Shown: positions 25,383-44,561 of the stretch, piece after piece
How the letters are laid out: each line of letters opens with the position of its first letter
Position numbering within the stretch: position 1 is the stretch's first letter
NCBI GenBank assembly: GCA_029821495.1
Contig: JALGTG010000001.1
Location: 1-44,561 of the forward strand
From: Candidatus Hebobacteria bacterium
GTDB taxonomy: Bacteria; Armatimonadota; Hebobacteria; Hebobacterales; Hebobacteraceae
Length of the DNA stretch: 44,561 bases
Direction: 5' to 3'
Notes under the pieces: generated by a model
Database searches by the model: none
Told to the model about the DNA's origin: nothing
The model's input: the letters and a program-made list of their open reading frames with translations, nothing else
Position numbers and translations under genes: made by a program

Positions 25383-27125
25383 ATGGCGACACCGCAGGGA
25401 CCGAAAAAGCCGCTGGGGCAGATCCTCCTGGACAAGGGTCTGATCACCCAAGATCAGCTCGACGAGGCCCTTAGGGTCCAGAAGAATACGACCGAGCAGC
25501 TCGGCCGTATCCTGGTGGACTTGGGCTATATCGCCGAGCGCGACGCATTGAAGGCCCACGCCGAGCAGCTCGGCATGCCTTTCCTCGAGCTCGACCGCGT
25601 AAGCATGGACGAGGACGTCGCAAAGGCCATCCCCCAGAGCGTCGTCCAGCGTTACAACGCGGTCCCCATTCGGCGCAGCGGCAACCGGCTGACCGTTGCC
25701 ATGGCCGACCCCACCAATGTCTTCGCCCTGGACGACATCCGGCTCATTACGGGATACGAGATCGACCCCATGCTCGCCGCCCCCGACGACATCAACGCAC
25801 TGCTCCGCGGCGTGGATGGGGGCGCTACCCAGGAAGAGCTTCAAACCGCACTCCAGGCCCTCGACGGAGGCTTCGAGCAGGGGCTGGGCGACGATCTCGA
25901 CCTCACCACTGCAGGCGTCGACGAGGACATCCGCGCGGATCAGGCGCTCGAGGACGAAGCGCCCATCATCCGCGTCGTCAATGTCATCATCCAGCAGGCC
26001 ATCAAAGACCGCGCCAGCGACATCCACGTGGAGCCCGACCGACGCGGAGTTCGCATCCGCTACCGTGTGGACGGCGTCCTCCACGAGGTAATGAGGGTCC
26101 CCAAGTACGTCCACGCACCCCTCGTCTCCCGTATCAAGATTATGGGAGACATGAACATCGCCGAGCGCCGCCTCCCCCAGGACGGACGTATCCACATCAG
26201 ACACGAAGGCAAAGACTACGACCTCCGCGTCTCCAGCCTCCCTACCGTCTTCGGCGAAAAAGTCGTCATGCGTATCCTCGACCAAAGCAGCGTCTTGATC
26301 GGACTCAACAAGCTCGGCCTCTTCCCCGAGATCCAGGCCCAGTTGGAGTCCATCATCGTACAGCCCAACGGGATGATCCTCTCCACAGGACCCACGGGCT
26401 CCGGCAAGACAACCACCCAGTACTCCGTCCTCAACAAGATCAACTCCGTCGAGGTCAACATCACCACCATCGAGGACCCGGTCGAGTACCAGCTGCCGGG
26501 ACTCAACCAGGTCCACGTCAACCGGAAGGCGGGCCTCACCTTCGCCAACGCAATGCGCTACTTCGTCCGCCAGGACCCCGACATCATCATGGTCGGAGAA
26601 ATCCGCGACCTCGAGACCGCCGAAACCGCCATCCAGGCATCTCTTACCGGACACCTCGTTCTATCTACCCTACACACCAATGACGCGCCGTCGGCCGTCA
26701 CCCGTATGGTCGACATGGGCGTCGAGCCGTTCCTGATCTCCGCCTCCGTCATCGGCGTCCTGGCTCAGCGCCTCGGCCGTCGCATCTGCGCCAACTGCAA
26801 GGAGCCTTACAAGCCGCCAGCCGAGGCCCTACAGAGAGTCGGCTTCGACGTCGAGAACATGGATGACGTCGTCTTCTACCGCGGGCGCGGCTGCGATCAG
26901 TGTCTCCACACCGGATACAAGGGCCGCAACGGCATCTTTGAGTTCATGCTCATGACCGAGGAACTCCAGGACCTGATCGTCAAGCGAGCGCCGCTCTCTG
27001 AGGTCCGCAACGCTGCCTTGGCGAGCGGCATGAAGACCCTGAAGTCGGACGGTTTCCAGAAAGTGGTCGAGGGGCTCACAACGGTTGAGGAAGTTATGCG
27101 GGTGGTCTTCACGGCAGGAGGGTAG
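25383..27125 (+). CDS. pilB: Type IV pilus assembly / T2SS ATPase PilB/GspE with N-terminal MshEN-like domain
   Basis: MshEN-like repeats; Walker A GPTGSGKTTT; Zn motif CANCKEP...CDQCLHTGYKGRNGIFE. Confidence 0.95.
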   Translation: MATPQGPKKPLGQILLDKGLITQDQLDEALRVQKNTTEQLGRILVDLGYIAERDALKAHAEQLGMPFLELDRVSMDEDVAKAIPQSVVQRYNAVPIRRSGNRLTVAMADPTNVFALDDIRLITGYEIDPMLAAPDDINALLRGVDGGATQEELQTALQALDGGFEQGLGDDLDLTTAGVDEDIRADQALEDEAPIIRVVNVIIQQAIKDRASDIHVEPDRRGVRIRYRVDGVLHEVMRVPKYVHAPLVSRIKIMGDMNIAERRLPQDGRIHIRHEGKDYDLRVSSLPTVFGEKVVMRILDQSSVLIGLNKLGLFPEIQAQLESIIVQPNGMILSTGPTGSGKTTTQYSVLNKINSVEVNITTIEDPVEYQLPGLNQVHVNRKAGLTFANAMRYFVRQDPDIIMVGEIRDLETAETAIQASLTGHLVLSTLHTNDAPSAVTRMVDMGVEPFLISASVIGVLAQRLGRRICANCKEPYKPPAEALQRVGFDVENMDDVVFYRGRGCDQCLHTGYKGRNGIFEFMLMTEELQDLIVKRAPLSEVRNAALASGMKTLKSDGFQKVVEGLTTVEEVMRVVFTAGG

Positions 27126-27183
27126 TGCCGCCGTAGGCTCGGGGGGCGACCGTTCACTCTTGCGAACTAGGGATGAGTGCATA

Positions 27184-28359
27184 ATGGCAGAGGCGACCGA
27201 GTCGGGAGAAGCCGGTCCGGAAGTTAGAGCACCAGACGCCCAGGGGCTCCCCACTGAGAGGGTGACGGCCGCGCGCCCCATCGAAGACGTCCACCTCGAC
27301 GAGCTCCTTCACCTCGTTGTCGACAAGAAGGGCTCAGACCTCCATCTCGCGCCTGGCGTGCCCCCCGTTCTCCGCATAGACGGGAAACTGCTCGCCACGA
27401 ACTTCGACGTGCTATCGGACTTCGAAGTGCAGCGGATGGTCTACGCAATCCTCACCGACGAGAACATCCGCAGCTTCGAGACCGACTACGAACTCGACTG
27501 CTCCTACGAGCTTAAGGGCGTCTCTCGTTTCCGGGTCAATATCTACCGCGATCGCGGCGCCGTCGCTGGCGCCTTCCGCGTCATCCCTTCCAGAATCCCC
27601 ACCGTCCGCGAGCTGGGCCTCCCCCTCGTCCTCGAGGACTTGAGCCGCAGACCCCGTGGGCTCGTCCTCGTCACCGGCCCAACTGGCTCCGGCAAATCCA
27701 CCACCCTGGCCGCACTCATCGGCCAGATCAACAACGAACGCTCCGAGCATATCATCACCATCGAAGATCCCATCGAGTACCTCCACACCCACCGGCGCAG
27801 CCTCGTCAACCAGCGAGAGATGGGCACCGATACCCGCAGCTTCGCCCAGGCCCTGCGCCATGCTCTGCGGGAGGACCCTGATGTCATCCTCGTGGGCGAG
27901 ATGCGGGACCTGGAGACGATGGCACTCGCAATCACCGCGGCCGAAACCGGACACCTGGTATTCTCTACCGTCCACACCAACAGCGCCGCCCAGACCGTGG
28001 ACCGCATCGTAGACGTGTTCCCCCCAGGCCAGCAGGAACAGATCCGCATTCAGCTCTCCAACACCCTCGAAGCAGTCCTCTCCCAGCAGCTCCTCCCGCG
28101 CGCCGGCACGCCGGGCCGAATCGCGGCCATGGAGATCATGGTCGCCTCTCCCGCCGTCCGCAACCTCATCCGGGAGGCCAAGGCCCACCAGATCACATCC
28201 ATCATCCAAACCAGCGCCCATCTAGGCATGCAGACCATGGACCAGTGCTTGCGCGATCTCTACCAGCGCGGCCTCATAACCTACGAAGAGGCCATGGGGC
28301 GCGCAATGAACCAGGAAGAGCTCAAGAAGATGCTCTTCACGCGGGGTGAGGAAGCCTAA
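27184..28359 (+). CDS. pilT: Twitching motility retraction ATPase PilT
   Basis: VVDKKGSDLHLAPGVPPVLRIDGKL; GPTGSGKSTTLAALI; VGEMRDLETM; ATG at 27184 more likely than 27085. Confidence 0.94.
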   Translation: MAEATESGEAGPEVRAPDAQGLPTERVTAARPIEDVHLDELLHLVVDKKGSDLHLAPGVPPVLRIDGKLLATNFDVLSDFEVQRMVYAILTDENIRSFETDYELDCSYELKGVSRFRVNIYRDRGAVAGAFRVIPSRIPTVRELGLPLVLEDLSRRPRGLVLVTGPTGSGKSTTLAALIGQINNERSEHIITIEDPIEYLHTHRRSLVNQREMGTDTRSFAQALRHALREDPDVILVGEMRDLETMALAITAAETGHLVFSTVHTNSAAQTVDRIVDVFPPGQQEQIRIQLSNTLEAVLSQQLLPRAGTPGRIAAMEIMVASPAVRNLIREAKAHQITSIIQTSAHLGMQTMDQCLRDLYQRGLITYEEAMGRAMNQEELKKMLFTRGEEA

Positions 28360-28388
28360 GGCAGGGCCGTCCCTCAGGAGACGACGCT

Positions 28389-29636
28389 ATGGCAACCTAC
28401 AACTACGTCGCTAAAGATGCCCTGGGAAAGGTCGTCACCGGAAGCTCCGAGGCGGAGAACGAGCAGATCCTCGTCCGCCGCCTCCGCGAGAAGGGCTTCT
28501 GGGTCCAGAAGGTCAACCCAGCCCACGCCCCCGCGCGACAACGGGCCCAAGTCCAGAAGGGCGGCGGATCGTTAGCCGTCTTCAGCCGCGTCAGCGGACG
28601 TGACCTCGCCATCTTCTGTCGCCAGTTCGCCACCATGATCGACGCAGGCGTCTCTCTAGTCCGGTGTCTGGCCGTCCTGGAGGAGCAGAGCGGCAGCGCT
28701 CGCCTGCGACAGATCATCAGCGAGATTCAGGCCGGAGTCGAGTCCGGCGAAACCCTATCCCGCTCCCTCACGCGCTGGCCGCGGGTCTTCGGCAATCTGT
28801 TCGTCGGGCTGGTCCGAGCCGGCGAGGTGGGTGGTGTTCTCGACGAAACCCTGAACCGACTCGCCACCTTCTTGGAGGAAAACGAGCGGCTTCGCCGCAA
28901 AGTCAAGTCGGCAATGACCTACCCGGCCCTGGTCCTGACGTTCGCCACAATAGTGGTCGTCGGTCTCGTGACCTTCATCCTGCCCCAGTTCATTCAAGTC
29001 TTCGAGGACCTGGGCATCGACAAAGACCTCCCCGCACCAACCCGGATCCTGGTCCAGATCAGCGACTTCTTGACCACCAAATACTGGATGGTCATCGGCG
29101 GTGTCATCCTGGCCTTCGTGGTCTTCAGCCAGTACACACGCACTCGCGTCGGCAAGCGACACTGGGACTGGTTCAAGCTGAAGGCACCCGTCTTCGGCAA
29201 GCTCAACCACAAGATCGCGATCGCGCGCTTCTCCCGCACCCTCAGCACGCTGCTCGTCAGCGGCGTCCCCATCCTCCAGGCCCTCGAAACGGTGGCGGGC
29301 GCCGTCGACAACGAGATCATCGGCGATGCCATCATGGCCGCCCGCGCCGCCATCCGTGAGGGCGAGCAGATCGGCGACCCTCTTCAGCGCAGCGGCATGT
29401 TCCCGCCAATGGTCGTCCAGATGGTGGCCATCGGCGAGGAAACCGGCTCCCTGGACGCAATGCTCTCGAAAATCGCGGACTTCTACGAGTCCGAGGTCGA
29501 CGCCACTCTCGCAAGCCTGACGGCGGCCCTGGAACCACTCCTCATCATCGTCCTCGGCTTCATCGTCGGCTTCATTGTCATTGCTATGTTCATGCCGCTC
29601 ATGCACGCCATCAGCCAACTGCAGTCTCAGGCGTAA
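28389..29636 (+). CDS. pilC: Type IV pilus inner membrane platform protein PilC/GspF
   Basis: RDLAIFCRQFATMIDAGVSLVRCLAVLEEQ; GEVGGVLDETLNRLATFLEENERLRRKVKSAMTYPALVL; ...IVGFIVIAMFMPL. Confidence 0.95.
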   Translation: MATYNYVAKDALGKVVTGSSEAENEQILVRRLREKGFWVQKVNPAHAPARQRAQVQKGGGSLAVFSRVSGRDLAIFCRQFATMIDAGVSLVRCLAVLEEQSGSARLRQIISEIQAGVESGETLSRSLTRWPRVFGNLFVGLVRAGEVGGVLDETLNRLATFLEENERLRRKVKSAMTYPALVLTFATIVVVGLVTFILPQFIQVFEDLGIDKDLPAPTRILVQISDFLTTKYWMVIGGVILAFVVFSQYTRTRVGKRHWDWFKLKAPVFGKLNHKIAIARFSRTLSTLLVSGVPILQALETVAGAVDNEIIGDAIMAARAAIREGEQIGDPLQRSGMFPPMVVQMVAIGEETGSLDAMLSKIADFYESEVDATLASLTAALEPLLIIVLGFIVGFIVIAMFMPLMHAISQLQSQA

Positions 29637-29648
29637 GGGGCCTCTTGA

Positions 29649-30500
29649 GTGTCGCCGCTCCCTGGGGCCGTGCTGTACGCTTCGATCTTCACTCTGGGCT
29701 GCGTAGTCGGGAGCTTTCTCAACGTCTGTATCTACCGCATGCCGCGGGACCGATCAGTCGTCGCCCCGCCTTCGCACTGCCCCCACTGCGGAGCCCGACT
29801 GCGGGCCATCGACCTCGTGCCGCTCATCAGCTTCCTCGCTCTCGGGCGGAAGTGCCGCTTCTGCGGCAGCCCGATTGCCTGGCGCTACTTCGCCGTCGAG
29901 CTGATAACCGGCCTGGTGTTCGTTGCCGTTTGGGCAGCCTCCGGCCCGGGGCTGCAAGTGCTGCCAAGCTGGATCTTCGCCTCCGTCGTTATAGCGGTCG
30001 TGTTTACGGACGTGGATCATATGATCATCCCGGACAAGCTCGTGGTGGCCGCACTCCTGGCGGCGCTGTTGAGCGAAGGGCTGTTGGCAATGCGAGGGGA
30101 GCCCCATCTGGCCTCTGTCAACCTGCTGGGCGGAGCACTTCCCATCCCCGGCTTCCTGGCCGGAGGTGTTGTGGGCCTTCTCGTCTTCGCCTTCATTCGC
30201 GTGTTCAGCCAGCTCCTCTTCCGACGAGAAGGAATGGGGCTCGGCGACGTGAAGCTCGCCGGCGCCATCGGCGCCATGTTGGGCCCCGTTCTCGCCCTCC
30301 TGAGCTTCGGGCTCGCCATTGTCGCAGGAGCCGTCCTCGGGATCTTGCTCCTCCTCGTGCGGCTGCGCCGCCGCATGGAGTATCTCCCCTTCGGCCCCTT
30401 CCTCGCCGTCTGCGCTCTGGTGGCGCTGGTGGCGCCGAAGACCCTGATCGGGCTGACCTCCACTCTCTACTCTCGCTGGGTGGAGATGTTGGCCCCGTGA
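29649..30500 (+). CDS. pilD: Prepilin peptidase PilD/GspO
   Basis: GSFLNVCIYRMPRD; CPHCGARL...CRFCGSPI; FTDVDHMIIPDKL; GLGDVKLAGAIGAMLG. Confidence 0.95.
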   Translation: MSPLPGAVLYASIFTLGCVVGSFLNVCIYRMPRDRSVVAPPSHCPHCGARLRAIDLVPLISFLALGRKCRFCGSPIAWRYFAVELITGLVFVAVWAASGPGLQVLPSWIFASVVIAVVFTDVDHMIIPDKLVVAALLAALLSEGLLAMRGEPHLASVNLLGGALPIPGFLAGGVVGLLVFAFIRVFSQLLFRREGMGLGDVKLAGAIGAMLGPVLALLSFGLAIVAGAVLGILLLLVRLRRRMEYLPFGPFLAVCALVALVAPKTLIGLTSTLYSRWVEMLAP

Positions 30501-30606
30501 GGGCGGTTTCAGGGCCCCACAGCAGCGGGTATGACAGAAGTGCCTGGTCGCAGCGCAAGCAGGGCGGCTGCTGTCGCCTTGGCACGAGCTGATGAGAGGT
30601 GAGAGC

Positions 30607-34837: not shown

Positions 34838-36698
34838 ATGCAGACATACACCAGCCACAACACACTCACGAGACCGCACCCGCCCCGCAGCGGCTTCACC
34901 CTCGTCGAGGTGCTCGTCACCACTGTCCTCCTGGTCATCGTGCTCGGCCTTCTCCTCTACTACCCCCTCACCAGCAGCTTCGGCTACTTCCGCAGCGCCA
35001 CCGCCCGCGCCGACGCCCAGTCCACAGCCCGCATCGCCCTCGACGCCATGGCGCGCGAACTCACCGAGGCCATGTACGTACAGCTCGACATGTCCGACGA
35101 CTCCATGGTGGCATTCGTCCCCCCTCTCCGCGTCGACCCGGATGACCCCAACAGCGACATCGTCATGCCGCCTCGCGCCGACTGGAACCGCGCCATCCGC
35201 TATTGGCGCGCCCTCCACGACCCGAGGATGAACCACGACACCGGCGGCCATCTCGGCCCCGGGAATACCTACTACCTGGCCCGCACCGTCGTCGAACGAT
35301 TGTACGACGACCCCGCCGACGACCCCAGCTTCCTCGCTCCCTTCGCAACCGACGACCCCTGGAACCGCTGGAACGACGACTGGGCGGACGACCAGGTGGC
35401 CGCGGCCGTCGATGGCAAGGACAACTGGTCCCCCATCAGCCGCTTGGTCCATACCGACGTGGACTGGCGCGCGAACAGCGGCCAGGTGGCCCTCCGAAAC
35501 GCCACCCTCCAGCCCGGATTCCCCTACCTCTGGGTCCAGTACAAGCTCGACCGGGGCGAAATCGGCGAGTGGGAGGCCAACAGACTCTACCGCGACAACG
35601 CCGTCGCCCTCACCCCAAACGTGCTCGAGTACGACATCTCTCGCCTCGCATTCACCCCCATAGCAGTCTCCGGCGAGTTGCTCCGCCCGGCCCGCATCGC
35701 AGGCCAGCAGGACGCCTCCGTCTAGCCTCGGCGTCTACTTCCCCGACTGGGCCCGGGACCCGTTCCTCCTCATCTCCAGGTACGACCCCGATGCCCCCCT
35801 AGAGGACCGCTACCAGAAGCATGCCATCGGCATGTTCGACCCCGACTCTCGCACCATGAAGGTCTTCAACCTCGACGACCTTCGCCCCGGCCCTCAGTTC
35901 GACCCCAACGCCGTCGCCTGGATCTACGACACAGACTGGTACTACACTGATCACCGGCGCGGCCTTGCCCGCGATACCCAATGGATCGGCTTCGGCGTGG
36001 ACTGGGTCAAAGGCGCCCTGCGATTCGACTTCCCGCCCCCGCCGGACGGCTCCTACCCCGAACAGCTCTTCCAACTGCGGGCCCAATGGCTCGTCTCGGC
36101 CAACACTCTCGACGACGGGCCAAAGCGGGACGCCCCGCTGCCTCTGTGGCGCCTGAGATCGGCCCCCGGCCCGGTCCTCACGGCCTTCCTCATCCCCGAC
36201 ACGGTCGAAGTCTGGACCGACACCGACACTGAACCCGGCCCAGGCGTCACAATGAGCGGCGCCCCCCAGATCCTTCTCACGCGGGTGGGCTGCACCCCGC
36301 GCGAAAGCAGCTATCAGTTCCAGCTCGGCACTGACCCCGAACTAGGACCGGCCGATCCCACCGAGGCCACGTATGCTCCCAACTACGGCTGGTTGCGATT
36401 GCCGCGCACCCTCGGAGACGGCGCCTCCGCGCAGAACCACACCTTCTGGGTCAGCTTCCGCTGGCACGACAACGGCGTCTGGTACAAAGAACCGGGCGCC
36501 GCGGCCGGGACCGGGCAGTACCACTGGGACCTGGTCTCAGCCTTCTACCGCACCGCCGCCGTCATTGACATAGGCCTCACGGTGACCCGCGCCGACCCGG
36601 GCGCTCCCTCCACCGACCGCATCGCTCAGTCCGCCAACATGACAAGACGCGTAAAACTGCACAACGTGCTCCGCAGGATTCGCCATGCCGAGGACTAG
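34838..36698 (+). pseudogene. Giant PilW-like minor pseudopilin, split by an apparent +1 frameshift near 35715-35725 (34838..35725 and about 35726..36698)
   Basis: SGFTLVEVLVTTVLLVIVLGLLLYYPLTSSFGYFRSATARADAQSTARIALDAMARELTEAMYV; stop at 35723; another frame continues SLGVYFPDWARDPFLLISRYDPDAPLEDRYQKHAIGMFDPDSRTMKVF without a credible start. Confidence 0.65.
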
Positions 36699-39600
36699 TC
36701 ACTTCGCACGACGCTACCTCCTCCACACCCACCTCGCACGGCGCGGCCAGGCACTCCTCGTCGCCGTGCTCGTGCTCTTCGCAGTCGCCACTCTCGCCGC
36801 CCTCTTCACCGCCATCATCGGAGCCCAGCTCTCCCAGGTCGCTCGCCACGGCGATGTCACCAAGCTCCGCAACCTCACCGAAGCCGGCCTCTGGCTTGCC
36901 AACGAGCAGCTCACCTACTCCGTCAAGGGCGCCGATTGGCGGCCGCCCGACGACCCCTACCTCTTCGGCGACGGCCGTATCGAGCTGTCCGTCACTTACT
37001 GGCCTCCGCCCCCGTCCCTCGCCCAGGGCGCTTTCTCCCCCAGCCCCCAGAGCGGACGCTTCATCCTCATCACCTCAACCGCCACCTTCCCCGACTACCC
37101 CTTCCTCCGCTACACCATGGCTGCCCTCAAACCCCTTCTCCTCACCGACTACGCCCGCTTCATCACCGACCGCCGCGAGACCGGCAGGCCCGCCCGCCTC
37201 GGCGTCTCGGGAGTGGAGTTGGGCGGCACGCCCCGCCCCGACTACCTCTTCCGTGTTCAAGGGCCCATCCGCTCCAACACCGATCTCGTCGCCTACGGCC
37301 GCTCCAGCGTTACCCTGCAAACCGCCGATGACCCGGCCGAGACCGGTTCGACATGGGCCCAGTTGGGCATCCCGCGCGACGACCGCATTGAGGTCGCCGG
37401 ATTCCTGCGGCCCGACCCCTCCCACCCGGTCGAGAACCGCGGCGCCGACGCCCTCGCCCTCACGGTCAGCGGCGAGCCCCGCGCCTCCGACCTCTTCCTC
37501 CCCCTGGACGAGGCGCAGGCCGACGACTACGCCGCCGCTTTCCCGGACTGGTCGCTTGACCCCTCCATCCTACATACCTCCAGCCGCATACTTGCTGACC
37601 TCCCCGGATACACCTCGGTGGGCGGATGGTTCCCCGGCCCCGCCAATTCCGTCCCCCGCGTCCAGCCGCCGGACCTCCTCGCCGAACATCCGGACACCTT
37701 CCGCAAGCGCTACTTGCTCCTCACCCGCGATTCCGGCGTCTTCGAGCCCGACGCCGCCACCGGCGACCTCCACAACACCGGCGAGTACGGCTGGGGCTTC
37801 ATGAACCTCGGCGGCATCTACATAGACAACATCTACGACATCCAGTACGACCACGACCTCGAGATGCTTCGCCTCAACTGGCTGCGCTCTGTTGGTGCCC
37901 ATGACCCCCTCGGAGACGAGCGCCCTGACGCCGACGCCCCACTCTCCGGCCCCGCCGACTGGTGGGACAAGACCGGCCGCTACTACTCTCCCCCAGCCGT
38001 CGAGATCGTCCTCCACGGCGAGCAAGACTGCCCCTATATCGAGATCATCCGTCACGACCCCCGCTCGGCGAATGGCGAGCAATACTACTGGTGCGACCTC
38101 TCGGGCGCGCCGATAACCCCCACCTCTCACCCCGCCGATTACGTGCCGACCCCCTATGAGTCAAACTGCGGGCCCGGAGCCGCGCCCGGCACATTTCGCG
38201 TCAAGAACAACACCGCCATCTTCCCCTTCCCACCCAACGGCGTCATCTACGCCGAGGGCAATGTCCGCATCCGCGGCATCATGCCGCCCATCAGGGACGA
38301 GCTGGGCAATTCCGGCACGAGTGTCCCCCTCGCCACAGCCGAGAAAATGCCCTATTTCGCACCATCTAGAACCGACGAAGGCCGCGCCCGCCGCTTCGAC
38401 CTCCAGGTCGTATCCGCCGGCACCATCTACGTCGAGGGCGATCTCCTGACCCCGGCTTCCGCCGGCCTCATAGCCGACACCGTTGAGGTAGACCGCCACT
38501 ACGGCTCCCGCCTCGCACTCCTCGCCCGCGACTACGTCTGCGTCAACACCACCGCCCTCAACCCTAGGCCGATCCAACTCCTCGACCCCTTCCTTGACCC
38601 CGCCACCGATGAGTACTACTTCTACAACGACCGCTACCCGGACTACCCGCCCGGCGGCTATCCACGTCACCTCGTGTTCCAGGGAACCCGAGACCCCGTC
38701 TTCAACAGCGCGGACTATGCGAAAGCGTGGAACCCTCCCACTGACCCCCCATTCGAAACCGATCCCCTTAACATCCAGTTCCTCTACCAGAACGTCAGGC
38801 TGCAGTATCCATACCTGAGCGACCAAATCCCCGACCTTCGCCTGATGCTGGGCCACTCGGGATTCTACGCGCTTGGCGACCCCGAAGGCGGATTCGATGG
38901 CGCGCCGCTAGGCGACCCCCTGGTGGATGACGAAGGCACCGATGAGCCTGCGGTGGATGTGGACATCTACTTCGACAATATCGTGGCCGGCACCACACGG
39001 CTTTGGGATGTCGCTGACACAGACCGCTATACATTCGTGCGCCCTGTGGCTACCCCAGGAGCCGCCGACCAATCCGATCACTGGTACCTCGAAGACGACC
39101 GCCTCGAACACCTGCCCAATGGCTTCCAACAGATGCAGGTGCACCCCAGCGACCTGCCCACCCCATACCTCACCGGCAATAATGACGTCATCACCTTCAC
39201 CTCCCGTGTCCACCCCGTCCGGGACTACGACGGCGACGGCAATATCGACGGCTGGCATATCTTCCCTCGCGACCTCGCCTACATCCTCGGCCCCGTCGCC
39301 GTCGCGCCCCCGTGCCGTCTCCAAGGCAGACCGACCCCCGCGGCCCCGCTCCCGGTTAGCATCGAAGCCATGATCTACGCCCAGAACGGCTCCTGGTTCA
39401 TCATCCCGGGCCCCTGGTTCAACGAAGACCCCGAAGAGAATACCTACACCGGGGACTCCCCCGGCTATCGCGAGCCCCTCAACATCCAGATCTCCGTCTA
39501 CGGAGCCGTCACCGAGAACATGCCCGCCGACATCGGCGCCGCCGCCGAGTGGACCAGCAAGTGGAGCGGCCCCCAAACCCGAGGATTCGGCGGGTACCTC

Positions 39601-39741
39601 AGGTACGCCTACGATCCCCTCCTCCGCTGGTCCCGCTGGGACCCCGACAGCAAAACATGGGCCCCGCGGTTCCCCAACCTCCCTGTCACTTCCGACATGC
39701 TCATCTGGGGCGAAAGAGTCTCCGGCAGGGCAGGATCGTGA
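36685..39741 (+). CDS. Giant PilX/GspK-like minor pseudopilin candidate (1018 aa)
   Basis: N-terminus RRGQALLVAVLVLFAVATLAALFTAIIGAQLSQVARHGDVTKLRNLTEAGLWLANEQLTY, lacking Glu5 as in GspK; position after PilV/PilW-like genes. Confidence 0.65.
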   Translation: MPRTSHFARRYLLHTHLARRGQALLVAVLVLFAVATLAALFTAIIGAQLSQVARHGDVTKLRNLTEAGLWLANEQLTYSVKGADWRPPDDPYLFGDGRIELSVTYWPPPPSLAQGAFSPSPQSGRFILITSTATFPDYPFLRYTMAALKPLLLTDYARFITDRRETGRPARLGVSGVELGGTPRPDYLFRVQGPIRSNTDLVAYGRSSVTLQTADDPAETGSTWAQLGIPRDDRIEVAGFLRPDPSHPVENRGADALALTVSGEPRASDLFLPLDEAQADDYAAAFPDWSLDPSILHTSSRILADLPGYTSVGGWFPGPANSVPRVQPPDLLAEHPDTFRKRYLLLTRDSGVFEPDAATGDLHNTGEYGWGFMNLGGIYIDNIYDIQYDHDLEMLRLNWLRSVGAHDPLGDERPDADAPLSGPADWWDKTGRYYSPPAVEIVLHGEQDCPYIEIIRHDPRSANGEQYYWCDLSGAPITPTSHPADYVPTPYESNCGPGAAPGTFRVKNNTAIFPFPPNGVIYAEGNVRIRGIMPPIRDELGNSGTSVPLATAEKMPYFAPSRTDEGRARRFDLQVVSAGTIYVEGDLLTPASAGLIADTVEVDRHYGSRLALLARDYVCVNTTALNPRPIQLLDPFLDPATDEYYFYNDRYPDYPPGGYPRHLVFQGTRDPVFNSADYAKAWNPPTDPPFETDPLNIQFLYQNVRLQYPYLSDQIPDLRLMLGHSGFYALGDPEGGFDGAPLGDPLVDDEGTDEPAVDVDIYFDNIVAGTTRLWDVADTDRYTFVRPVATPGAADQSDHWYLEDDRLEHLPNGFQQMQVHPSDLPTPYLTGNNDVITFTSRVHPVRDYDGDGNIDGWHIFPRDLAYILGPVAVAPPCRLQGRPTPAAPLPVSIEAMIYAQNGSWFIIPGPWFNEDPEENTYTGDSPGYREPLNIQISVYGAVTENMPADIGAAAEWTSKWSGPQTRGFGGYLRYAYDPLLRWSRWDPDSKTWAPRFPNLPVTSDMLIWGERVSGRAGS

Positions 39742-39899: not shown

Positions 39900-41180
39900 A
39901 TGGCGGACAAGCAGGTTCTTGGCCTGGACATCGGCACCAGCCGCATCAAGTTCGCAGAAGCCCGCATGACCCGCGGCGGACCCGTCATCACCGCCGCCGG
40001 CATCGGCATGACCCCGCGCGACGCCATCGCCAACGGAGTCATCGTTGACCCCGCTGCCCTCGGCATGGCCGTAAGGGACCTCCTCTCCTCACACGGAGCC
40101 AAGACCAAGAACGTCGTCAGCTCCGTCGCCAGCCAGTCCTCCCTTGTCGTCCGGCCCATCGAGCTCCCCCGCATGACCCGCGAAGAGCTCGCCGACACCA
40201 TGAAGTGGGAAGTCGACCGGCACATCCCCTTCGCCGCCAGCGAAGTCGTCATGAGCTACGAGCCCCTCATCCCCCCGGAGGAACTCCCCGAGGACGCCGC
40301 CAACATGGAAGTCCTCCTCGCCGTCGCCCAGGAAGACATGATCGACGCCCACGTGCAGACCCTCTTCGCCGCCGGCCTCGACCCCGTCGCCCTCGACGTC
40401 GAGCCCCTCTCCGCATGCCGTTCCCTCATAGACATAGATCGCGATCGCGGCGCCTACGACCACATCTACGGCCTTCTCAGCATCGGTGCCACCACTACCG
40501 ACCTCAGCATCATCCGCAATGGACTCCTCTCCTTCACCCGCGCCATCCCCGTCGCCGGAGACAACGTCACCAACTCCATCGCCGAGGCACTCGGATACGA
40601 GTTCCCCGAGGCCGAACGAGCCAAGGTCGAGCACGGCGCCGTCTTCGTCGAAGGCGCCCCCGCCCTCGAAGCTCCCCGTGAGCCCGAAGCCGCGCCCCCG
40701 GCCCCCATCCCCGAACCTGAAGTCCAGGCCATCTCGCCCCCGGAAGAGGCCCAACCCGAGGAGAGAGTCTTCGACCTCGGCGCCGACGCCGGACCGTCCG
40801 CCCCTCCTCCGCCGGACCAGCAAGCGCCACCGCCCTTGCCCTCCGTCCACAAGCCCACCGCCGGCTCCACCGAGCGGCAGATCTACGACGCCATGCTCCC
40901 CACTTTGGCCGAACTCTCCACAGAGGTCCGCCGCTCCATCGAGTACTACGTCAACCGCTATCCCGATTCTCGCGTCGACAAGATACTGCTCTTCGGCGGC
41001 ACTGCCAGGCTGCCACGCCTCGCCGAGTTCCTCGGCAACGAGGTGGGCCTCGCCACAGAAGTCGGCAGCCCCTTCCAGCGCCTCGCAATCGATCAGATGG
41101 GTGTTACCGCCGATCTCGTCGAAGCCGACGCTTGCTTCATGCCCATTGTCGTCGGCCTGGCGATACGAGATATGCTCTGA
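39900..41180 (+). CDS. pilM: Type IV pilus assembly protein PilM (actin-like) with Pro/Glu-rich insertion
   Basis: VLGLDIGTSRIKFAEA; MKWEVDRHIPF; LSIGATTTDLSIIRNGLLSFTRAIPVAGDNVTNSIAEALG; ILLFGGTARLPRLAEFL. Confidence 0.92.
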   Translation: MADKQVLGLDIGTSRIKFAEARMTRGGPVITAAGIGMTPRDAIANGVIVDPAALGMAVRDLLSSHGAKTKNVVSSVASQSSLVVRPIELPRMTREELADTMKWEVDRHIPFAASEVVMSYEPLIPPEELPEDAANMEVLLAVAQEDMIDAHVQTLFAAGLDPVALDVEPLSACRSLIDIDRDRGAYDHIYGLLSIGATTTDLSIIRNGLLSFTRAIPVAGDNVTNSIAEALGYEFPEAERAKVEHGAVFVEGAPALEAPREPEAAPPAPIPEPEVQAISPPEEAQPEERVFDLGADAGPSAPPPPDQQAPPPLPSVHKPTAGSTERQIYDAMLPTLAELSTEVRRSIEYYVNRYPDSRVDKILLFGGTARLPRLAEFLGNEVGLATEVGSPFQRLAIDQMGVTADLVEADACFMPIVVGLAIRDML

Positions 41181-41200: not shown

Positions 41201-42007
41201 ATGATAAAGATCAACCTGCTGCCCGAGTACATCGTCGAGCGCCGGCGCGTCAAGGTCTGGATCGCTGGCCTGGCCGTGCTCCTCATCCTTGAGGTCCTCA
41301 TCCTCGCCGCCTATGTCTGGGGCCCCCTTCCATTCTCTCTCAACCAGAGGCTGGCGAAGGCGGAGAAACGGGAGAGCGACGCCATCGCCGCCGCCCTGGA
41401 GGTCGAGGCAATCGAGACCGAGACCGCCCAGGTCAGAAGCCGCTTCGCTGCAAAGAACTCCTGGGTCCGGTGGGTCAACGAGGCCGACAAGTTGCCCGCG
41501 GAGTGGGTCGACTACCTCAACAGCATCAATGACACCATCCCTGCCGACGTTGTCATTCACGGGCTCCAGCTCCCCAGCGGCGGCGTCCTCAACCTCAGCG
41601 GCTCCACCAGTGACATGATGGCCGCCCTCCGCTGGTACCTCAACATGCTCCGCTGCGATATCGTCCAGCCCGGCCTCCAGTCTGTCCAGTTCAACCCGGG
41701 CGCGCAAGCCGTTACGACGGGCGGAATCACCGACCCGATGGCCATGTCAGTCTCCATGACCGTTGCCTTGAAGCCCCAGGCCTACTCAGTAGTCGGCCGC
41801 GTGCCCGCACCGCCTGCCGGTATCGCGGGCGGTGCCACCGCCCGGGGAAGGGGCGGCGGCGGACGCATGGGCGGAAGCCCCGGTGCCGGTGGACGAGGCG
41901 GCGGCATGCGAGGCGGCAGGGGAGGCGGCATGCGAGGCGGCGGCATGCGAGGTGGTGGCATGCGAGGCGGTGGTATGCGAGGCGGTGGTATGCGAGGTGG
42001 CATGTGA
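41201..42007 (+). CDS. pilN: PilN-like fimbrial assembly protein with (GGGMR)n C-terminal tail
   Basis: MIKINLLPEYIVERRRVKVWIAGLAVLLILEVLILAAYVW; ATG at 41201. Confidence 0.85.
   Translation: MIKINLLPEYIVERRRVKVWIAGLAVLLILEVLILAAYVWGPLPFSLNQRLAKAEKRESDAIAAALEVEAIETETAQVRSRFAAKNSWVRWVNEADKLPAEWVDYLNSINDTIPADVVIHGLQLPSGGVLNLSGSTSDMMAALRWYLNMLRCDIVQPGLQSVQFNPGAQAVTTGGITDPMAMSVSMTVALKPQAYSVVGRVPAPPAGIAGGATARGRGGGGRMGGSPGAGGRGGGMRGGRGGGMRGGGMRGGGMRGGGMRGGGMRGGM
41897..42004 (+). repeat. 15-nt tandem repeats encoding GGGMR in pilN-like gene
   Basis: Consensus GGCGGYGGYATGCGA; six GGGMR units plus a partial unit. Confidence 0.9.
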
Positions 42008-42095
42008 GGCGGTGGCCCGCCGGCACGATGGTGACGGCCCGCCGCGCGGTCCCGAACGTCAGGCGCGCTAGCAGCGGAGAGCGAGGAGCAGCACA

Positions 42096-42950
42096 GTGAG
42101 CCTACAACGGATCACGCGAGTTCAAGTGCTTATCGTGGGCGCGGCCGTTATCGCGGTCGTCGCCGTTGTCTTCCTGTTCGTCCTCATCAAACCCCAGCTC
42201 GCGGACATCGCCGCCATCGTCAGCTCGGCGGAGGAGAACGAGCAATACGCAGCAACGCGTCCCCAAAAAGAGCAAGCCCGTGCCACCGCCCTCGAGCAGG
42301 AGAGACAGGTCACCGAGGAATGGGACGAGATCGTGGACACCCGCATGCCTGACATCGGCCCCCATCTCCTCAAGGACCCAATCGCCGCCACCTTGCGCTT
42401 CTGGGACCTCCCGGCCGAAGAGGAAGCTGTCATCCGCAATTGGTTCAACGACTCGGGCGCCGTGGTCACCGGCTACGGCTTCCCCACCTGGCCCACCGCA
42501 ATGCCCAGTTCCTTCCCTCCCAGAAACATGCTCGCACTCTCTCCCCTCGACTGGAACCTCTCCGTCTCGGTGGACGACCTCCCAGAGCTGCTGGACTGGG
42601 TGCTCAGCATACCCAGAGCCCCCCGCTTCATGGTGATGCACAGCGTCACAATCCAGGGCTCCCATGGCCCCGGTCAGCCCCTCGTCGCTAGCGTGCCCGT
42701 TACCCTCTACCAGTGGACCGGCGTCGAGCCTACGGGAGGGGGCGCCGCCCCGGCAGAAGGCACGGCCGCCCAGGCCGGCGGCGGCATGGGCCCTGGTATG
42801 GGCGGCGGCATGAGAGGCGGCGGCATGCGAGGCGGCGGCATGCGAGGCGGCGGCATGCGAGGCGGCGGCATGAGAGGTGGTGGTATGCGAGGTGGCGGCA
42901 TGCGAGGTGGCGGCATGCGAGGTGGCATGAGAGGCGGCGGCATGAGGTAG
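42096..42950 (+). CDS. pilO: PilO-like protein with (GGGMR)n C-terminal tail
   Basis: GTG start; single N-terminal TM (VLIVGAAVIAVVAVVFLFVLIKPQL), coiled region, SPLDWNLSVSVDDLPELLDWVLSIPRAPRFMVMHSVTIQG; position after pilN. Confidence 0.75.
   Translation: MSLQRITRVQVLIVGAAVIAVVAVVFLFVLIKPQLADIAAIVSSAEENEQYAATRPQKEQARATALEQERQVTEEWDEIVDTRMPDIGPHLLKDPIAATLRFWDLPAEEEAVIRNWFNDSGAVVTGYGFPTWPTAMPSSFPPRNMLALSPLDWNLSVSVDDLPELLDWVLSIPRAPRFMVMHSVTIQGSHGPGQPLVASVPVTLYQWTGVEPTGGGAAPAEGTAAQAGGGMGPGMGGGMRGGGMRGGGMRGGGMRGGGMRGGGMRGGGMRGGGMRGGMRGGGMR
42801..42947 (+). repeat. 15-nt tandem repeats encoding GGGMR in pilO-like gene
   Basis: Nine GGGMR units and one GGMR unit, e.g. GGCGGCGGCATGCGA. Confidence 0.92.
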
Positions 42951-43044: not shown

Positions 43045-43767
43045 ATGAACCCGGCTGACCGAAACAAGATACTGATCATAGGTGGCATTGCAGTCGTCGC
43101 CATTGCTATCATCGTGGTCGTCCTCATGCGAGGCCGAAAGCCGGCCTGGCAAGAGGGACCCGCTGGCGGATTCTCGACCGACGTGGCCCAGGCCCCCGGC
43201 GCCGACGAAGCCGGCTACCCGGCCGCCGGACCAGCCGCAGGTGCGCCAGCCGGACCCCTCCAGGCTGCAGGCCCAGAAGTCGGAGCCGGAGCGGCCGAGG
43301 CCGAGGCGCCTGCCGCCCCGATCGACGTCAGCGTCGGCGTTGTCAAGATGGGCGATGGCATTGACGAGGCCTCCCGCCCCGATTCTTTCCGTACCTTCGA
43401 GCCTGTGATCCCACCCCCCCCACCGGAAGTCGTCACGCCGCTCCCGGTCGCCATGCTGGGCCCCTTCCGGCCCGCCCAGCCCGAAGAAACAGCCGTCCTC
43501 GGCCGCCGCCGGGCCGCTGGCGTCATGTTCAACGAGCGAGCCTGGGCCATCCTCCAGGAGGGCGACAAAACATTCATCGTCAAGCCCGGCGACATTGTTG
43601 ACGGCGTCCGCATCTCTGCCATCGGCAGAGACGCCATCTACGTCACCGACGCCGAGGGGCGCCGCTGGGAGGTCCCCCTCCGAGGTACCGGACCCTCCAC
43701 CGAGATGCGCGGCCCAAGAACCGACTACATCGAAGCGATGCCCGAGCTGCCCCCTGCCGCTCCCTGA
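43045..43767 (+). CDS. PilP/GspC-like pilus assembly protein
   Basis: N-terminal TM ILIIGGIAVVAIAIIVVVLM; Ala/Pro linker; C-terminal beta module GVMFNERAWAILQEGDKTFIVKPGDIVDGVRISAIGRDAIYVTDAEGRRWEVPLRG. Confidence 0.65.
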   Translation: MNPADRNKILIIGGIAVVAIAIIVVVLMRGRKPAWQEGPAGGFSTDVAQAPGADEAGYPAAGPAAGAPAGPLQAAGPEVGAGAAEAEAPAAPIDVSVGVVKMGDGIDEASRPDSFRTFEPVIPPPPPEVVTPLPVAMLGPFRPAQPEETAVLGRRRAAGVMFNERAWAILQEGDKTFIVKPGDIVDGVRISAIGRDAIYVTDAEGRRWEVPLRGTGPSTEMRGPRTDYIEAMPELPPAAP

Positions 43768-43886: not shown

Positions 43887-44561
43887 ATGGCAATGGCTCG
43901 CAACAGAACGCGACTCTTGGCGACTCTCGCAGTGGTCGCTCTGGCCCTGACCGGCGTGCTCTTCGCCGGCATCCGCGCCTCCGCCCAGATCGAGGACCGG
44001 CCCATTACCCTCGACCTGCGCGACGCCGACCTCGAGGACGCCCTCCGGCTCATCTTCAAAGACACCCCCTACAGCTTCACCCTCGAGCCCGGCATCGGCG
44101 GAACAGTCACTCTCACCCTCAACAACGTGACCTTCAGCCAGGCGCTCCGCGCCATCCTGGAAATGCATGGGCTTACCTACCGCAAAGAAGACCGCATCTA
44201 CCACATTACCTCCGAGCCCATCGAGCCCCCCGGCTTCGGCACCGAACCACCTGTGCAGCCCACACCGCGCGTCGACATATACTGGTTCGGACCCGGCGGC
44301 CGCTACGAGCTGCAGTACCTAGACTGCCGCCTCGTCATCGCCTGGTTTGGTGGCTCGCAGATCCCCTCCTCCCTCATCCCCTTTCCTGCTGAAGGCGGCA
44401 CCGGCGGCGGCACGGGCGGCCGCACCGGTGGCACAGGCGGCATCGGCGGCGGCACGAGCGGCGGCATAGGCGGCTCCAGCATGGGCGGCGGCATAGGCGG
44501 CAGCACTGGCGGCATCGGCGGCGGCAGCGGTGGCATCGGTGGCGGCGGCGGTGGCCGTGGC
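43887..44561 (+). CDS. Secretin (PilQ/GspD-like) N-terminus, 3' partial, with Gly-rich tract; missing from ORF track because it has no stop in the window
   Basis: ATG after AGGAGG; signal-like LLATLAVVALALTGVLFAGIRASA; STN domain ITLDLRDADLEDALRLIFKDTPYSFTLEPGIGGTVTLTLNNVTFSQALRAILEMHGLTYRKEDRIYHI; then (GGT/GGI/GGS)n. Confidence 0.85.
   Translation, partial: MAMARNRTRLLATLAVVALALTGVLFAGIRASAQIEDRPITLDLRDADLEDALRLIFKDTPYSFTLEPGIGGTVTLTLNNVTFSQALRAILEMHGLTYRKEDRIYHITSEPIEPPGFGTEPPVQPTPRVDIYWFGPGGRYELQYLDCRLVIAWFGGSQIPSSLIPFPAEGGTGGGTGGRTGGTGGIGGGTSGGIGGSSMGGGIGGSTGGIGGGSGGIGGGGGGRG

Follow-up and report, generated by a model that had tools for sequence, protein, structure and literature searches.

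The PilM-PilN-PilO-PilP alignment complex of type IV pili is described from Pseudomonas, Myxococcus and Thermus, and from E. coli as HofMNOP. In the canonical sets checked, PilN and PilO stop after their globular domain. The locus analysed here agrees with these systems in gene order, in homology and in the succession of transmembrane helix, coiled coil and ferredoxin-like domain, whereas the pair found in Armatimonadota adds disordered, low-complexity tails. E. coli HofN/HofO and A. baumannii PilN/PilO carry no such tails; together with the solved Myxococcus and Pseudomonas proteins these make up the comparison with other phyla, a thin sampling of outgroups to which scans of plasmids and viral contigs added almost nothing. 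The canonical operon is followed by aro genes in E. coli (hofMNOPQ-aroKB) and in A. baumannii (pilMNOPQ-aroK), and we noticed the same arrangement in some relatives of the present genome (L052, L053, L056), where shikimate-pathway genes, recognised by eye, follow pilMNOP and the secretin gene. With FG-, RGG- and Met-rich prion-like domains, which are described mainly from the eukaryotic cytoplasm or nucleus, the tails share composition, predicted disorder and rapid sequence turnover.

The nearest described counterpart is a flexible, Gly/Pro-rich periplasmic region at the pilus base of Thermus thermophilus. It belongs to PilW, the PilP counterpart, and bridges PilQ and PilN-PilO across a wide periplasm of roughly 70 nm; once it is truncated by 54 residues, the inner-membrane density shifts about 7 nm (PMC13039148). 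In PilW, however, this is a region within one bridging protein, a different subunit, and here we deal with matched tails on the PilN-PilO pair. A full-text search for PilN/PilO combined with glycine-rich or disordered, and for pili of Armatimonadota, yielded no description of such tails in a scope that left out most subscription journals; the genome paper on Fimbriimonas, which lists pilus genes, says nothing of glycine. The novelty assumed in a preliminary description of this DNA is in line with this outcome: matched PilN/PilO tails in Armatimonadota appear as an undescribed pattern in the literature searched, which is not proof that none has been published.

The pilus operon and its GGGMR arrays

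The window, by which we mean the whole stretch of 44,561 bp analysed, is one complete contig, C96, from a draft genome of 3.02 Mb in 317 contigs. Its named relatives assign this genome to the phylum Armatimonadota. It carries a type IV pilus operon, pilM-N-O-P together with an STN protein (Table 1), with genes assigned by means of profiles built in this analysis. The secretin gene lies beyond the contig end; in relatives it follows the STN gene. Among the motor and platform genes upstream, the PilT-family match exceeds its cut-off, PilB scores 668.6 bits, just below the cut-off of 675.65, and PilC is the best match for its gene at a score below cut-off. Several prepilin-like genes are also present on the contig, ahead of pilM.

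Table 1. Features of the pilus locus, in positions of the window
Feature	Position	Strand	Description
pilB, pilT-family, pilC	25383..29636	+	T2SSE, MshEN, T2SSF; upstream of pilM
315-residue protein	29645..30592		pilus cluster; no convincing family match
1018-residue protein	36685..39741		pilus cluster; N-terminal hydrophobic segment; no convincing family match
pilM	39900..41180	+	cytosolic actin-like alignment-complex protein; Pfam PilM_2 1.6e-48; TIGR01175 1.3e-60, above cut-off
pilN	41201..42007	+	one TM helix, coiled coil, ferredoxin-like domain, disordered tail
PilN tail array	41894..42004	+	six GGGMR units
pilO	42096..42950	+	GTG start; one TM helix, coiled coil, ferredoxin-like domain, disordered tail
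PilO tail array	42801..42947	+	ten units: nine GGGMR, one GGMR
pilP-like gene	43045..43767	+	N-terminal hydrophobic segment, conserved C-terminal domain; assigned by position and relatives' profile
STN (secretin N0-like) protein	43887..44561	+	Pfam STN 2.4e-14; gene cut by contig end, complete in relatives
Gly-rich segment of STN protein	44394..44561		differs in kind from the GGGMR arrays

Some properties of the neighbouring proteins may be recorded here. The pilP-like protein of the window has no Pfam match and no Gly array. The operon PilM shows a Pro/acid-rich insertion at about residues 250–330, and open frames of 500–800 residues suggest that PilM is far longer in many families. The STN protein is encoded by a separate gene between pilP and the secretin gene (complete at L052 5100-5873 and L053 4454-5227); its Gly-rich tail is of the GGFGG/GGYGG type, almost free of Pro, and has an aromatic last residue (F, Y or W) in 48 of 76 genomes.

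Searched alone, neither window protein matches the curated PilN or PilO models. When the aligned families were turned into profiles, PilN found the PilN chain of the Myxococcus structure 3jc8 (1.7e-15) and PilO found the PilO chain of the same entry (3e-7) as well as Pseudomonas PilO (2rjz, 1.4e-4). Pfam PilN is matched by 7 of 32 family members, the window protein not being one of these, and Pfam PilO by 7 of 31. The pilN gene directly follows pilM and its product starts with MIKINLLP, which contains the INLLP motif. AlphaFold2 predicts for both proteins an ordered core with a long N-terminal helix, a coiled coil and a ferredoxin-like domain, and a tail that is mostly (PilN, residues 213–260) or nearly completely (PilO, from residue 222) below pLDDT 50. 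In Foldseek the PilN model matches the periplasmic domains of PulL/EpsL/XcpY (best E 1.1e-3) and the PilO model yields PilO/PulM matches (3jc8_O 1.1e-4, 2rjz 3.7e-4). Family profile and predicted fold thus agree with the earlier naming of the two genes as PilN and PilO, the tails follow the ferredoxin-like domain in the models, and they should be periplasmic, as had been proposed. Low pLDDT over most of both tails, combined with their Gly/Pro-rich composition, is what one would expect of flexible spacers.

PilN ends in GGGMRGGRGGGMRGGGMRGGGMRGGGMRGGGMRGGM, in frame and in the number of units first reported; for PilO the count of ten had been right, one unit being the shorter GGMR. Tandem Repeats Finder reports two arrays of period 15, one with 8.8 copies at 41894-42016 and one with 9.8 copies at 42801-42944, with copy numbers that are uncertain in a draft genome for arrays of about 110–150 bases. 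The arrays exceed chance expectation: genome-wide, the coding pattern GGMRGG has 63 occurrences and its reversed control 4, while for GGMRGGMR the two counts are 18 and 0. All differences between units in both window arrays are synonymous (GGC/GGT, CGA/AGA/AGG), while 32 of the 45 possible single-base changes in a unit are non-synonymous; this counts toward selection on the coding sequence.

Tails across Armatimonadota

PilM was found in all 121 genomes. About 80 of these and 80 named records supplied the pilMNOP loci, giving a dereplicated set of 103 genomes with complete PilN and PilO. With tail boundaries set by composition thresholds, the last 50 residues are of low complexity and Gly/Pro-rich in 82% of PilN and 79% of PilO, compared with 3 of 302 (1%) neighbouring non-operon ORFs. 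Median tail lengths are 58 (PilN) and 63 residues (PilO). Both tails reach at least 25 residues in 84% of genomes, with at least one such genome in 25 of 29 families; because one partner has no tail of this length in about 16% of genomes, tails on both partners are not a requirement. A Gly-rich tail is also found on about 60% of PilP in the phylum.

The tails are present across Armatimonadota, rich in Gly, Pro and Met, while their unit sequence turns over between lineages: we observed GGGMR, GPGM, MGAPM, GYPGG, GPGSVRPPGPGG and the acidic PDMPPDMM. No conserved tail motif was seen across the phylum, the net charge of the last 50 residues spans +12 to −12, and Met, at fractions of 0.074 (PilN) and 0.078 (PilO) in the tails versus 0.028 and 0.024 in the cores, is absent from the tails of some lineages. 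Of the arrays that the preliminary description proposed to look for in relatives, the GGMR type proved narrow, with several GGMRGGMR matches only in the window genome and one relative of its own family (G007) among the 121 genomes and a single match in G055; the GGGMR tails are one lineage's version of a phylum-wide matched-tail pattern.

The window genome itself contains three more PilM/N/O sets (L141 on C216, L142 on C231, L143 on C280), all untailed. The C216 set is linked to pilB and pilT, the other two contain GspL-like PilMN fusions. In 11 genomes with PilN/PilO of the PilT-linked C216 type the median Gly fraction of the last 50 residues is 0.10 and the maximum 0.14. A genome-wide habit of Gly-rich tails was rejected as a full explanation on the basis of these paralogues and of the 302 neighbouring ORFs.

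The tails of PilN and PilO from one genome co-vary in composition and in repeat words, which bears out the matching first noticed in the window. Within genomes the two tails have a 3-mer cosine of 0.352; against relatives it is 0.302 at 65–95% PilM identity, 0.187 at 45–65% and 0.171 below 45% (p ≤ 1e-4 in all three comparisons). In independent contrasts on the PilM tree PilN and PilO are correlated for Met (r = 0.62), Gly (0.50), Pro (0.42) and Arg (0.35), weakly for tail length (r = 0.20, p = 0.03), and for net charge with like sign (r = 0.32); electrostatic complementarity of the two tails was rejected on this last result. A vocabulary common to the whole operon was likewise rejected, PilP taking part to some extent and STN not: PilN-PilP shows a 3-mer excess only against more distant genomes, PilN-STN shows none against close relatives, and the PilN-STN contrast for Met is not significant (r = 0.09). 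The separation from STN is imperfect because PilO-STN contrasts reach r of about 0.5 for charge and Arg, where a rank test supports Arg alone. The C-terminal tips match among PilN, PilO and PilP when compared with distant genomes and not significantly when compared with close relatives. These are several tests on one data set with p values uncorrected for multiple testing; the PilN-PilO match lies far below a corrected threshold against distant genomes and is weaker against close relatives.

Origin and spread of the repeats

Both window arrays use the unusual Arg codon CGA, which accounts for 13 of their 19 Arg codons as against 8 of 65 in the operon cores (Fisher p = 4e-6); this points to a common DNA origin of the two. 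In the arrays on C174 and C182, CGC predominates. DNA 18-mers common to both tails occur in 14 of 102 genomes, in 7 of these significantly beyond synonymous shuffles (p = 0.08 for the window genome). Exchange of DNA between the tails thus occurs and is undetectable in most genomes, and recent exchange was discarded as the sole cause of matching there. Without the 14 genomes the protein match stays: at k = 3 it is 0.303, compared with 0.251 for close relatives (p = 3e-3). The remaining match must come from older exchange eroded at silent sites or from selection.

These observations bear on the strongest competing explanation, which is a largely neutral one: GC-rich codon repeats would expand by slippage on tolerant free C-termini, gene conversion between adjacent arrays would keep them alike, and the tails would have no dedicated function. 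The common CGA bias, the 18-mers, the quick turnover of units and the occurrence of the GGMR unit on other exported proteins of the genome are all as this explanation predicts. It accounts poorly for tails that persist across 29 families and are nearly absent from neighbouring genes and paralogous PilN/PilO, and for unit differences that are exclusively synonymous; matching in genomes without a common 18-mer also speaks against it, although ancient, eroded conversion could mimic that result. We regard the neutral explanation as possible and rather unlikely.

GGMR arrays are present in five further exported proteins of the window genome, two on C174 and one each on C81, C182 (a lipoprotein) and C267 (a PKD-domain protein), so that the total is at least seven and an array unique to the PilN/PilO pair was rejected. 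The preliminary description had named the same array on many unrelated proteins as a refuting finding, and this is thereby partly borne out. The array does not behave as a mobile minisatellite, which would be frame-independent and also non-coding: all seven arrays share one protein frame and lie in exported proteins, and stray single matches are mostly out of frame. An assembly artefact or such a minisatellite is very improbable; arrays of this length in a draft are prone to copy-number errors, yet independent genomes of the family carry similar but distinct tails. Arrays on unrelated exported proteins suggest a more general role in the envelope or a lineage-wide repeat habit. GGMR arrays are inserted inside the exported proteins at L020 4111-6364, L019 1-513 and L076 1965-3287, and in G007 two near-identical arrays are found within one such protein.

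The lipoprotein on C182 (L021 4396-5433, minus strand, 345 residues), which belongs to no Pfam family, has (GGGMR)n at its C terminus. In five genomes of the family the Gly/Arg tail of this type of lipoprotein is similar to that of PilO from its own genome (permutation p 0.017–0.05, n = 5). This shows that a general habit is part of the story in the window's family, and the lipoprotein may act with the pilus as an envelope partner that has so far gone unrecognised.

A proposed role for the tails

The best explanation of the data, to which we give about an even chance, is that the tails are flexible spacers or a brush on the presumed periplasmic PilN-PilO ring that evolve in concert. They would extend from the ring into the periplasm, where they would surround the growing pilus as a soft collar or serve as spacers of low affinity, and would help the inner-membrane platform to reach PilP, the STN protein and the secretin and to keep in register with them. 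Constraint would act on length, flexibility and mutual compatibility alone, which would leave the sequence free to drift by slippage of codon units; selection for equivalent tails on both partners would keep them matched, and an occasional exchange of DNA between the arrays would contribute. The spacer function is proposed by analogy with Thermus PilW, another protein in another phylum. The weak correlation in tail length gives little support to a spacer that sets distance and counts against one, and PilP and the STN protein, as parts that already bridge, also count against the spacer role, as do the genomes with a tail missing on one partner and the arrays on unrelated exported proteins. More tentatively, the tails may form a matched disordered pair, a phylum-wide periplasmic brush whose sequence drifts while selection keeps its two halves compatible, and which would co-evolve by composition and not by contact residues.

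Multivalent contacts of Gly, Met and Arg could instead make the tails form or join a condensate, clustering pilus machines or gating the secretin vestibule, with like composition rendering the two tails miscible. Met-rich low-complexity domains are reportedly able to phase-separate in other systems, and the parallel variation of the two tails, in which even charge keeps the same sign, and the enrichment of Met (7–8% in tails, 2–3% in cores) would suit such a mechanism. The range of compositions, Arg-rich to acidic and Met-rich to Met-free, does not, and a single literature search brought up no periplasmic precedent; we consider condensation improbable.

Slightly lower still is our estimate for tails that bind a defined ligand (peptidoglycan, polyanions, or copper through Met) or sense oxidants. 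Such a role would fit the Arg- and Met-rich tails of the window's family and the resemblance of the lipoprotein tail to PilO. It fits less well with the lack of a phylum-wide motif, the span of charge and the lineages without Met, and the described MAGs of Hebobacteria stem from anoxic sediments (PMC10290634). The Arg- and Met-specific readings first put forward, RGG-like polyanion binding and oxidant sensing, consequently do not generalise.

We therefore favour the flexible spacer or brush, with neutral expansion and gene conversion as its main rival. If real, the tails would mean that one of the best-studied bacterial machines has been modified across a whole phylum, and they could help to explain how the base of a pilus spans an unusual envelope. 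They would also offer a natural system for the co-evolution of disordered regions, with two partners, about 100 lineages, strong turnover and conserved pairing, in which the untailed paralogues of the same cells would serve as control.
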